Shown: in pieces, positions 42,101-48,100 of the stretch | Position numbering within the stretch: position 1 is the first letter of the stretch | Layout of the letters: each line of letters starts with the position of its first letter | DNA from: Amyelois transitella | Taxonomy: Eukaryota > Arthropoda > Insecta > Lepidoptera > Pyralidae | Direction: 5' to 3' | DNA length: 64,000 nt | Assembly: GCF_032362555.1 (NCBI RefSeq) | Contig: NC_083512.1 | Span: 11,210,001-11,274,000, forward strand | Made by a program: the position numbers and the translations under genes | The notes under the pieces: model-generated | Databases searched by the model: none | Seen by the model: the letters and a program-made list of their open reading frames with translations, nothing else | What the model was told of the DNA's origin: nothing

Positions 42101-45100
42101 TAAGTTTAGAATTGCGTTAACTTCTGTTCCTCTCAAGAATTCTTCTCTTATCCGCTGTTTTGAGCTGGGCTTTGATATGTCAGTGAATCAGTAAGTCAGT
42201 GATCCTTTTCGTATCATTAATTTATTTATTTATTTACGCCAATAATACAACGGTAGTAATACACCTCTCAAAGTATTTGGCAAGAAATTCTTATATAACA
42301 AAATAAAATCTTGTCAGTCTTCATCTATATATATAAAAGCGAAAAACACTCACTTAGGAATCACGAAATCTACTGAGCCAATAAAGATGAAATTTGGCAG
42401 GAAGGTAGATTTTAATAAGGAGGGATCCACTAAGAAAGGATTTTTGGAAATTCTATTCCTAAGGGGGTGATAGGGGTTGCAAGAAATTTTAGATTTAATT
42501 TTAAATAAAAAGATGATATGATATGGGTAAGAAACAAAGAAGTCATTAAAGAGGATCCTCACCAGAATTGGAGACCATCAGTGTGAGGTACTCGCCGCTG
42601 ATGTTGGAGTAGAAGCCGAGCAGGAACCCCTTGGGGTTGGTGGTGGTGAACCCCACGCGGATCTTCTCCGCGATGGTGGACCGCCACGACCCCAGGAAGT
42701 CGTATTTCACCATCGAATTGGGCCGGAGGTTCACGCCGATTTCTGGAATTGAAATTATTGTTAAGAGTAAAATTAACAGTATTATATTAACAGTACAGTA
42801 ACCAAGATTATAAATAACATAGGAAACATTATGCAGTTTGTCTATATTTAAAAATATTTATATAATCCGCTCTTTTAGTGAGCTGAAAATCTCTGAAAAA
42901 GTGAAAGTGTCTAGAAATATTGTCTTAGTAAATAAAATGAAAATATGTGTATGTGTGCATGAAAATATATGTGCCGTGTGGTTCACGACACCAATAGAAA
43001 AAAAAAATAGGACCACTCCATCTCTTCCCCATGGAGGTCGTTAAAGGCGACTAAGTGATAGGTTTATTAGGATTCCTCTTTTAGGCGATGGGCTGGGAAC
43101 ATGTCACTATTTGAATCTCAATTCTATCATTAAGCCAAACAGCTGAACGTGGCCTTTTAGTCTTTGGATGACTGTTGGCTCTGTCTACTCCGCAAGTGAT
43201 TATATGTCATGTAATAAGTGCATTACTAATTAACTTACCATCAGCACAGATAGGGCCTTTGAACGAGGTCCAGCGACAGTCGCAGGAGTAGGAATCGTAG
43301 CCCTCCAGGCATGTCCCGTTGTTGAGACACGGAGACGACTGACATTTGCCCGTGCAGCCTTCCGAAACCCCATAAATACCTGCGAATTAATGGTACTAGA
43401 TGTGAGACATGTTTCTATTGTATGTATGAGAAATTTAAGGTATTTTGTTTTTGCCAACACTAATCTCAATTAATCTTCCACAAATCTTAATTAATCTTCA
43501 CTTAAATTAATCTTTATTTGAATTTGATTAATCCGCTAGATAAAATTTATTAAACATAATGGTTAGCTAAACTGGCCTCTTCTGTCATAAAGATGTTACA
43601 AACGTGTGTAAGACTATAATATTTTGATTTCACGATAACCTGCTGGGTTTCCAGCTGTAAAAAGTGATTTCAAACTATCGATAGCAGATAGGAAGTTCTG
43701 TATCATGTTCTCGCTTCGCTATCACTCTACACCCTATAACCCTGGTGTTATTCAGTCCGGTCCAGCTGCAGCTGATCTCTATGCCACACCGACCTCTCCT
43801 GGCGAGTCCCCGTAGGTCGGCAGCCCGTCCGTTGAGCAGCAGCGCCCGCAGACAGCCCACGAACCCGTCGCTGCGGTCCAGCTGCAGCTGATCTCTATGC
43901 CACACCGACCTCTCCTGGCGAGTCCCCGTAGGTCGGCAGCCCGTCCGTTGAGCAGCAGCGCCCGCAGACAGCCCACGAACCCGTCGCTGCGGTCCAGCTG
44001 CAGCTGATCTCTATGCCACACCGACCTCTCCTGGCGAGTCCCCGTAGGTCGGCAGCCCGTCCGTTGAGCAGCAGCGCCCGCAGACAGCCCACGAACCCGT
44101 CGCTGCGGTCCAGCTGCAGCTGATCTCTATGCCACACCGACCTCTCCTGGCGAGTCCCCGTAGGTCGGCAGCCCGTCCGTTGAGCAGCAGCGCCCGCAGA
44201 CAGCCCACGAACCCGTCGCTGCGGTCCAGCTGCAGCTGATCTCTATGCCACACCGACCTCTCCTGGCGAGTCCCCGTAGGTCGGCAGCCCGTCCGTTGAG
44301 CAGCAGCGCCCGCAGACAGCCCACGAACCCGTCGCTGCGGTCCAGCTGCAGCTGATCTCTATGCCACACCGACCTCTCCTGGCGAGTCCCCGTAGGTCGG
44401 CAGCCCGTCCGTTGAGCAGCAGCGCCCGCAGACAGCCCACGAACCCGTCGCTGCGGTCCAGCTGCAGCTGATCTCTATGCCACACCGACCTCTCCTGGCG
44501 AGTCCCCGTAGGTCGGCAGCCCGTCCGTTGAGCAGCAGCGCCCGCAGACAGCCCACGAACCCGTCGCTGCGGTCCAGCTGCAGCTGATCTCTATGCCACA
44601 CCGACCTCTCCTGGCGAGTCCCCGTAGGTCGGCAGCCCGTCCGTTGAGCAGCAGCGCCCGCAGACAGCCCACGAACCCGTCGCTGCGGTCCAGCTGCAGC
44701 TGATCTCTATGCCACACCGACCTCTCCTGGCGAGTCCCCGTAGGTCGGCAGCCCGTCCGTTGAGCAGCAGCGCCCGCAGACAGCCCACGAACCCGTCGCT
44801 GCGGTCCAGCTGCAGCTGATCTCTATGCCACACCGACCTCTCCTGGCGAGTCCCCGTAGGTCGGCAGCCCGTCCGTTGAGCAGCAGCGCCCGCAGACAGC
44901 CCACGAACCCGTCGCTGCGGTCCAGCTGCAGCTGATCTCTATGCCACACCGACCTCTCCTGGCGAGTCCCCGTAGGTCGGCAGCCCGTCCGTTGAGCAGC
45001 AGCGCCCGCAGACAGCCCACGAACCCGTCGCTGCGGTCCAGCTGCAGCTGATCTCTATGCCACACCGACCTCTCCTGGCGAGTCCCCGTAGGTCGGCAGC

Positions 45101-48100
45101 CCGTCCGTTGAGCAGCAGCGCCCGCAGACAGCCCACGAACCCGTCGCTGCGGTCCAGCTGCAGCTGATCTCTATGCCACACCGACCTCTCCTGGCGAGTC
45201 CCCGTAGGTCGGCAGCCCGTCCGTTGAGCAGCAGCGCCCGCAGACAGCCCACGAACCCGTCGCTGCGGTCCAGCTGCAGCTGATCTCTATGCCACACCGA
45301 CCTCTCCTGGCGAGTCCCCGTAGGTCGGCAGCCCGTCCGTTGAGCAGCAGCGCCCGCAGACAGCCCACGAACCCGTCGCTGCGGTCCAGCTGCAGCTGAT
45401 CTCTATGCCACACCGACCTCTCCTGGCGAGTCCCCGTAGGTCGGCAGCCCGTCCGTTGAGCAGCAGCGCCCGCAGACAGCCCACGAACCCGTCGCTGCGG
45501 TCCAGCTGCAGCTGATCTCTATGCCACACCGACCTCTCCTGGCGAGTCCCCGTAGGTCGGCAGCCCGTCCGTTGAGCAGCAGCGCCCGCAGACAGCCCAC
45601 GAACCCGTCGCTGCGGTCCAGCTGCAGCTGATCTCTATGCCACACCGACCTCTCCTGGCGAGTCCCCGTAGGTCGGCAGCCCGTCCGTTGAGCAGCAGCG
45701 CCCGCAGACAGCCCACGAACCCGTCGCTGCGGTCCAGCTGCAGCTGATCTCTATGCCACACCGACCTCTCCTGGCGAGTCCCCGTAGGTCGGCAGCCCGT
45801 CCGTTGAGCAGCAGCGCCCGCAGACAGCCCACGAACCCGTCGCTGCGGTCCAGCTGCAGCTGATCTCTATGCCACACCGACCTCTCCTGGCGAGTCCCCG
45901 TAGGTCGGCAGCCCGTCCGTTGAGCAGCAGCGCCCGCAGACAGCCCACGAACCCGTCGCTGCGGTCCAGCTGCAGCTGATCTCTATGCCACACCGACCTC
46001 TCCTGGCGAGTCCCCGTAGGTCGGCAGCCCGTCCGTTGAGCAGCAGCGCCCGCAGACAGCCCACGAACCCGTCGCTGCGGTCCAGCTGCAGCTGATCTCT
46101 ATGCCACACCGACCTCTCCTGGCGAGTCCCCGTAGGTCGGCAGCCCGTCCGTTGAGCAGCAGCGCCCGCAGACAGCCCACGAACCCGTCGCTGCGGTCCA
46201 GCTGCAGCTGATCTCTATGCCACACCGACCTCTCCTGGCGAGTCCCCGTAGGTCGGCAGCCCGTCCGTTGAGCAGCAGCGCCCGCAGACAGCCCACGAAC
46301 CCGTCGCTGCGGTCCAGCTGCAGCTGATCTCTATGCCACACCGACCTCTCCTGGCGAGTCCCCGTAGGTCGGCAGCCCGTCCGTTGAGCAGCAGCGCCCG
46401 CAGACAGCCCACGAACCCGTCGCTGCGGTCCAGCTGCAGCTGATCTCTATGCCACACCGACCTCTCCTGGCGAGTCCCCGTAGGTCGGCAGCCCGTCCGT
46501 TGAGCAGCAGCGCCCGCAGACAGCCCACGAACCCGTCGCTGCGGTCCAGCTGCAGCTGATCTCTATGCCACACCGACCTCTCCTGGCGAGTCCCCGTAGG
46601 TCGGCAGCCCGTCCGTTGAGCAGCAGCGCCCGCAGACAGCCCACGAACCCGTCGCTGCGGTCCAGCTGCAGCTGATCTCTATGCCACACCGACCTCTCCT
46701 GGCGAGTCCCCGTAGGTCGGCAGCCCGTCCGTTGAGCAGCAGCGCCCGCAGACAGCCCACGAACCCGTCGCTGCGGTCCAGCTGCAGCTGATCTCTATGC
46801 CACACCGACCTCTCCTGGCGAGTCCCCGTAGGTCGGCAGCCCGTCCGTTGAGCAGCAGCGCCCGCAGACAGCCCACGAACCCGTCGCTGCGGTCCAGCTG
46901 CAGCTGATCTCTATGCCACACCGACCTCTCCTGGCGAGTCCCCGTAGGTCGGCAGCCCGTCCGTTGAGCAGCAGCGCCCGCAGACAGCCCACGAACCCGT
47001 CGCTGCGGTCCAGCTGCAGCTGATCTCTATGCCACACCGACCTCTCCTGGCGAGTCCCCGTAGGTCGGCAGCCCGTCCGTTGAGCAGCAGCGCCCGCAGA
47101 CAGCCCACGAACCCGTCGCTGCGGTCCAGCTGCAGCTGATCTCTATGCCACACCGACCTCTCCTGGCGAGTCCCCGTAGGTCGGCAGCCCGTCCGTTGAG
47201 CAGCAGCGCCCGCAGACAGCCCACGAACCCGTCGCTGCGGTCCAGCTGCAGCTGATCTCTATGCCACACCGACCTCTCCTGGCGAGTCCCCGTAGGTCGG
47301 CAGCCCGTCCGTTGAGCAGCAGCGCCCGCAGACAGCCCACGAACCCGTCGCTGCGGTCCAGCTGCAGCTGATCTCTATGCCACACCGACCTCTCCTGGCG
47401 AGTCCCCGTAGGTCGGCAGCCCGTCCGTTGAGCAGCAGCGCCCGCAGACAGCCCACGAACCCGTCGCTGCGGTCCAGCTGCAGCTGATCTCTATGCCACA
47501 CCGACCTCTCCTGGCGAGTCCCCGTAGGTCGGCAGCCCGTCCGTTGAGCAGCAGCGCCCGCAGACAGCCCACGAACCCGTCGCTGCGGTCCAGCGCGGCG
47601 CCCAGCACCAGCGGCGCCTGCAGCTGGAGGGCCCGCACGGGAGCACGCGCCGTGCGAATCTCGTTCTTTAGGGCTCCGTCGACTACTACACGGGCCTCTT
47701 TCCTGTGATCAAAATACCGTTTTTAGAGCACCATTTCATTAGATCGCATGTGATGCGGTAGCGGCTATCAAGCGACAATTTCTATGCTAAAACCAACAGC
47801 GCGACGCGACATATGATTTTCCAAGCCACGTGCAGTAATTCGGCGATAAGCCAGAGTTAAAAACGCACGTTTGAATATAATTCCACACTGAGCTGCTGTC
47901 GCGTCGCTGCCGCACGATTTCCGACCTAATGTGAAGGCGGCCTTAACAAACCCAAACACAGATGATATATCTTATCATCAACTCAAGTCAAGGGGAGTTT
48001 ACGACGCAAGAATAAGTAATACGAGGGCGGCACTGAAAATTTCGGGAATAAATAAATAAATAAATATCTATATACGTGACAAATTACACTGATTAAGTTA

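Follow-up and report, generated by a model that had tools for sequence, protein, structure and literature searches.

In the neurexin-IV-like gene of the moth Amyelois transitella, the tail of one exon, its 5′ splice site and the start of the following intron form a 116-bp unit that is present in 33.08 identical tandem copies, located at 43758..47594 on the minus strand of the stretch analysed here (64,000 nt of contig NC_083512.1; hereafter the window). We consider it probable that this array is a real and young minisatellite, which arose as an internal duplication flanked by microhomology across a 5′ splice site and is tolerated since the first donor is the one used. Among the open-licence papers listed by searches on duplicated donors, splice-site minisatellites and partial exon duplication, none showed an array of this kind. 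A whole-assembly search located the array once in the 327-Mb, 33-contig assembly (at G000:C8:11210001-11274000), and a scan of viral contigs and prokaryote genomes for insect contaminants carrying relatives of the array found none. Moreover, the same geometry, overlooked by an earlier sequence-only reading of this stretch, is present at three other exons of the window and at an exon matching PI4KB, and with this recurrence the subject is no longer one unusual array but a process that recurs and appears to act on one side only.

Structure of the array

Tandem Repeats Finder (TRF) reported positions 43758-47594 with a period of 116, 33.1 copies, 100% matches and no indels. At an offset of 116 the exact match ran for 3721 bases, that is 32 × 116 + 9; thus all copies are identical base for base, with zero mismatches across the 3837 bp of the array, and a partial copy of 9 bp closes it. 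Chance can be discounted for a repeat of such length. The sequence-only reading had counted 33 exact units, a number that stands as the count in one assembly, and had given the span as 43758..47593, of which the start is right and the true end lies one base further, at 47594. It had also divided the unit into 88 bp of exon and 28 bp of intron; this division is possible but not unique, since 79 + 37 is equally valid, depending on the side to which the 9-bp microhomology is assigned. This microhomology is the direct repeat CGGTCCAGC (plus-strand letters), which bounds the unit with an exon-side copy at 47586..47594 and an intron-side copy at 43758..43766 (both minus strand). The flanks of the array run into native exon and native intron, and the GC content of the unit is 0.68.

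On the minus strand GAGAG/GTCGGT (slash at the splice junction) occurs 33 times, always spaced by 116, which bears out the series of GTCGGT donors described earlier. Donor 1 (47500..47505) closes the native exon 13 of our window model (47506..47702, minus strand, 197 nt), which carries the end of a LamG domain and whose tail is the amplified one, and donor 33, the last, lies at 43788..43793. The next exon is located at 43239..43379 on the same strand, and its previously proposed acceptor at 43379 was confirmed; the intron reaching it measures 4126 nt from donor 1 and 414 nt from donor 33, the latter being the size expected with a single unit. No other GT of the unit scores clearly above zero as a donor than that of GTCGGT. 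When the donors of the moesin and neurexin-IV-like genes were ranked with a leave-one-out matrix it came 23rd of 27, and it also ends, in phase, a single-copy EGF exon of the neurexin-IV-like gene (60317..60423, minus strand).

Use of donor 2 shifts the frame with no stop inside its exon or the following exon, whereas donors 3–7 and 33 lead to a stop at codon 108 counted from the exon start, so that donor 1 is the sole one with a full-length frame among those printed (1–7 and 33). These outcomes agree with those given by the sequence-only reading and support its inference that the full-length protein has to come from donor 1. Exons produced by later donors would be at least 313 nt long. We also considered a structural RNA device and rejected it, because the fold of a three-unit RNA was no better than that of shuffled sequences (z = 0.49; 66/100 shuffles as good).

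The host gene and its surroundings

In the neurexin-IV-like gene, on the minus strand, 17 exons of the window model, from 63414 down to 40453, join into one open frame of 871 codons; the first exons of the gene lie beyond the window. Over these 871 amino acids Pfam marks three stretches of Laminin_G_2 and two of EGF, and a PDB match to neurexin-1-alpha covers residues 487-858. Further exons reach to ~37143 and end in the C-terminus ...RREFFI, with a segment which by eye resembles a membrane span. The gene thus has LamG and EGF domains in series, followed near the C-terminus by a membrane-like stretch and a short tail, and the predicted product is of the neurexin-like type, in keeping with the earlier assignment of the amplified exon to a neurexin-like LamG domain. 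All four PDB sequences matched are neurexin-1-alpha; the presumed assignment to neurexin-IV rather than neurexin relies on a fibrinogen-like stretch and the type of tail, neither of them matched by a tool.

The intron that precedes the array exon holds a unit of ~348 bp repeated three times at 96% identity, together with ACAG microsatellites (48643-49671). Minus-strand fragments at 48368-48532 and 50033-50581 look like broken pieces of a mariner transposase; one of three pieces has a weak Pfam helix-turn-helix match below the family cut-off. Elsewhere, plus-strand open frames at 15990-17401 look by eye like an insect odorant receptor, with no Pfam match for two frames. The plus-strand gene of the window is moesin, and its alignment with the solved moesin structure 2i1j extends across residues 64-575 of 575; we take 2i1j to be the moesin of the moth Spodoptera frugiperda. 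Both this alignment and the SINE-like repeats of the window fit a lepidopteran sequence.

The same geometry at other exons

Three further exons of the window have a copy of their tail and donor directly downstream. In neurexin-IV exon 17 (40669-40453), the tail and the donor GTAAGA lie in a tandem duplication of ~447 bp (39690..40601, minus strand) with 89.6% identity and an intact downstream donor. In moesin exon 2 (1146-1316), the tail and GTGAGT lie in a 191-bp duplication (1188..1714, plus strand) with two copies and a degenerate third, and in moesin exon 8 (5623-5835), the tail and GTGACC lie in an exact 135-bp duplication (5764..6036, plus strand). A possible third, older copy after moesin exon 8 (6043-6077, 74% over 35 nt) had an ungapped score of 25 by hand, below the best shuffle at 27, and is treated as chance. 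Divergence spans 0 to ~20% among the three cases. GC is 0.66 in the moesin exon 8 unit and 0.52 and 0.47 in the other two; the moesin exon 8 donor ranks 26th of 27, and the other two duplicated donors rank 2 and 12. Use of the second donor would bring a stop in all three exons. The alignment with 2i1j crosses both duplicated moesin junctions with nothing inserted, so in that relative the protein fits first-donor use.

Outside the window, the tail of an exon matching PI4KB, together with its GTGAGA donor, is present in six copies of 171/173 bp downstream of the exon (L016:4521-5556 = G000:C8:3004521-3005556; by TRF, 171 bp × 6 at 98%, with successive periods of 173, 173, 171, 171 and 171). The units differ from one another, with variants common to neighbours, and six of six donors are intact. 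Read-through meets a stop two codons past donor 1; the exon boundary was set by the GTGAGA donor, the end of the match to a solved structure and this stop, the following exon not being located. In all five donor cases (neurexin exons 13 and 17, moesin exons 2 and 8, and PI4KB) use of a later donor would break the protein.

This array came from a 200-kb sample made up of bases 3,000,001-3,010,000 of contigs C1-C20, which is thus a fixed-position and not a random sample. It contains four TRF arrays of period ≥40 (read by eye in L013, L014 and L016); that of PI4KB alone exceeds two copies, and none exceeds six. Looser self-alignment of the sample gave some more diverged tandem copies (L014, L015, L020 and L025). 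Arrays are denser in the window (8 in 64 kb vs 4 in 200 kb, P = 0.002), a comparison that is post hoc, the window having been chosen for repeats. The window also holds an exact two-copy 127-bp duplication in sequence like a short interspersed element (32293-32546), which has no microhomology and could be an unmerged overlap; 127 is a common assembly k-mer size. Several assembled sequences have sizes in multiples of 2500 (e.g. 13252500, 12012500 and 9180000), typical leftovers of Hi-C scaffolding tools.

Asymmetry between the donor and acceptor sides

To compare both exon ends, the last or first 100 bases of each window exon were scanned against up to 1500 bases of the adjoining intron, terminal exons being one-sided, which gives 27 comparisons each way. 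A copy was found in the downstream intron for 4 of 27 tails and in the upstream intron for 0 of 27 heads. For neurexin exon 19, whose acceptor could not be placed, the scan took the beginning of the peptide as the exon start. It also flagged downstream copies for two heads, that of moesin exon 2 and that of neurexin exon 17; these are the same copies seen through overlapping ends.

A second set consisted of 42 kinase exons in 35 regions (37 + 5), hand-picked from 145 genome matches as short ones likely to belong to multi-exon genes. One of 38 typed matches lay outside its region, and two exons per direction were short of flank, leaving 40 each way; some flanks were below 300 bases, and the cut-off required z > 5 and a score that exceeded the best shuffle by more than 5. 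Partial copies were found downstream of 2 of 40 exons and upstream of none, in a set which by itself (2 vs 0) is too small to discriminate. The two copies lie just downstream of their exons and are decayed (L047:690-915, 88%; L045:795-1400, 75%); perhaps they are older events of the same exon-tail copying type. Signals below the cut-off were seen downstream in L057 (35 vs 30) and upstream in L042 (26 vs 21). Pooling window and kinase exons gives 6/62 vs 0/62 (Fisher P = 0.028), a test made before the last five kinase exons, which had no hit, were added. Moreover, among seven listed local tandem duplications four straddle a donor only, vs 0.82 expected under permutation (P = 0.005, or P = 0.019 when survival is restricted to intronic and donor-only events); the set comprises local duplications in two gene bodies, leaving out the degenerate array at 60048-60306 and extragenic ones.

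Together these cases suggest that the copying of exon tails is recurrent in this genome and apparently one-sided. Because the sister cases range in divergence and the PI4KB array carries variants, the process is recurrent and not an assembly effect alone. Several points weigh against the one-sidedness and against our account of it. The window alone gives P = 0.11 (Fisher), the window cases were known before the asymmetry test was framed, and the samples are small. By eye, the decayed copies in L045 and L047 have no intact donor. Finally, a rule of exon definition should tolerate acceptor duplications too, yet none was found in the tested exons; first-come donor use during transcription, or a mutational bias, may thus add to exon definition.

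How the array may have arisen and been tolerated

We propose that the exon tail, the donor and the intron start were first doubled by a tandem duplication between the 9-bp direct repeats, of which one lies in the exon and the other 116 bp away within the intron, and that the duplicate was then expanded to ~33 copies by slippage or unequal exchange. The spliceosome would take the donor nearest the upstream acceptor, that is donor 1, which yields the 197-nt exon, and the other 32 would remain as intronic decoys; the array may be tolerated because this nearest donor is used. Growth of the intron from 414 to 4126 nt should deepen exon definition, under which the upstream of equal donors tends to win. 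By this rule the array would be self-protecting, since the intron grows with every further unit and the choice moves towards the donor closest to the upstream acceptor. Minigenes that carried two identical donors, flanked by introns of 365 nt, used the upstream donor alone, and in a survey of human events matched for donor strength the upstream donor was preferred in 60% (PMC9225289).

The same source also holds results that speak against this account. When strength was unmatched, the downstream donor was preferred in ~60% of 4,171 human events, with a downstream majority in four of four intron classes, and when both donors were weakened, smaller exons kept the upstream preference and larger ones were mostly skipped (PMC9225289, in part). 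The minigenes, moreover, carried two donors and the array has 33. Skipping of exon 13, which is 197 nt long, out of frame and followed by a weak donor (23/27), is hence a live alternative.

The claim of a very recent expansion made by the sequence-only reading stands as far as zero divergence is concerned, while the recency is weaker than claimed. Taking a butterfly mutation rate of 2.9e-9 per site per generation, three differences are expected over 3837 sites at ~270,000 generations, and at 8e-9 at ~98,000. Since the bound is only ~270,000 generations, perfect identity needs no burst, although one may have occurred. A stronger account, in which an active one-sided process copies exon 3′ ends with their 5′ splice sites and the array is a burst, perhaps from a circle closed at the 9-bp repeat and returned home by rolling-circle replication to leave 33 competing donors, appears decidedly unlikely to us.

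Alternative explanations

The duplication could be real and the 33 copies with their perfect identity a product of assembly or polishing, such as a loop or a mis-sized repeat that was filled with copies of a single unit. The identity of 33 out of 33 copies fits such a product, and the window has three more duplications in two exact copies (of period 97, 127 and 135, that of 127 bp without microhomology) which could share an assembly source; moreover, false duplications are documented, some of them from incorrect gap filling (PMC9516828). Against it, contigs are few and long (33 for 327 Mb) and N is absent from the window and the 200-kb sample; the PI4KB units retain differences, so homogenising is not universal; a 9-bp repeat would be too short for a loop to be closed at an ordinary assembly k-mer unless real reads crossed the junction; long perfect arrays are uncommon here, the four arrays of the sample having at most six copies; and the sister duplications range in divergence while the flanks of the array are native. 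We therefore regard an assembly product as unlikely, yet as a serious rival where the number 33 is concerned. A mutational bias, arising for instance from transcription-linked breaks, towards exon ends that carry a 5′ splice site might underlie the one-sidedness in place of selection among survivors. The excess of donor-only straddling, which persists under the survival limit, and the lack of upstream copies in the window exons and the kinase sample speak for such a bias; the sample is, however, small and partly post hoc, and GC-rich units are confined to the array and moesin exon 8, not found in the other two, so we hold this explanation to be improbable.

Functional readings fare less well. 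The sequence-only reading had offered the array as a possible rheostat, in which some transcripts take later donors, hit a stop and decay, so that neurexin-IV output falls with copy number. A frameshift or stop does follow the later donors, the decoys copy the native donor exactly, and for Drosophila it has been proposed that nonsense-mediated decay (NMD) serves as a fallback where newly gained introns are weakly spliced (PMC2809761). But the like arrangements in moesin and PI4KB would then have to act as regulators of unrelated genes, and later donors would produce exons of at least 313 nt when smaller exons are preferred (PMC9225289, in part), which makes a rheostat very unlikely. Alternatively the copies could help, U1 small nuclear ribonucleoprotein on downstream copies aiding the definition of an exon with a weak donor. 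The low ranks of the array and moesin exon 8 donors (23 and 26 of 27) suit this idea, as does human PAH, where exon inclusion is promoted by U1 binding downstream of the natural donor (PMC5933811); the other two duplicated donors, however, rank 2 and 12 of 27, and helper copies seem to us highly improbable. Our preferred reading remains the tolerated minisatellite.

Relation to known systems and significance

MicroDNA is GC-rich, and the array resembles it only in its end microhomology and GC-rich genic source. As in microDNA that depends on microhomology-mediated end joining, a class of extrachromosomal circular DNA, the repeated unit is short, genic and flanked by microhomology; microDNA sizes are given as 200-1000 bp or 100-400 bp (PMC8599734, PMC5587290), whereas the 116-bp unit lies around or under the lower end of these ranges, and the array is part of the chromosome and sits at its original site. 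The array has the head-to-tail copies and the unit of ten to a hundred or more bp by which minisatellites are recognised. As in minisatellites or variable number tandem repeats, its units are bounded by a short direct repeat, but the array unit adds a splice site and coding sequence and has no variant units.

The array is also an internal duplication, in that the copy lies in the same gene, on the same strand and beside its source, splice site included. Intragenic tandem duplications (Gao & Lynch 2009, as cited in PMC3443670, PMC4974935 and PMC2809761) can likewise include exon-intron boundaries; there the focus is on making or multiplying introns, whereas the array needs no new intron and stacks 33 copies in an old one. 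With intron gain by tandem duplication it shares the local copying of splice signals (PMC4974935, PMC3443670), of which a fission yeast case, with several duplications of a 24-bp AGGT segment and an intron that extends across them, is an example (as described in PMC4974935). Intron gain supposes an intron that was missing before the duplication; here, judged within this gene and with no relative compared, taking away the 32 extra units still leaves a donor and the acceptor at 43379, with an intron of 414 nt between them. A gained intron is also not required, since with use of donor 1 every extra unit is spliced out as part of the native intron. In potato RdRp the copied segment takes in an acceptor together with the first part of the exon that follows it (PMC4974935), whereas the array duplicates the donor and an exon tail and lengthens the native intron; the potato case means that acceptor-side duplications do occur elsewhere. 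Engineered minigenes place identical donors in series after one acceptor, two in number (PMC9225289, in part); the array is natural and has 33.

The choice between equal 5′ splice sites has so far been studied in pairs, and the array offers a natural series of 33 in a conserved gene, which allows an extreme test of the rule that the nearest donor across the exon wins. That similar copies exist at other exons suggests that a genome may, at little cost and with no harm to the protein, make its introns longer and lay up a stock of splice sites, and the stockpiled donors would be a possible feedstock for the evolution of introns and alternative splicing. Donor-side copies are predicted to far outnumber acceptor-side copies.

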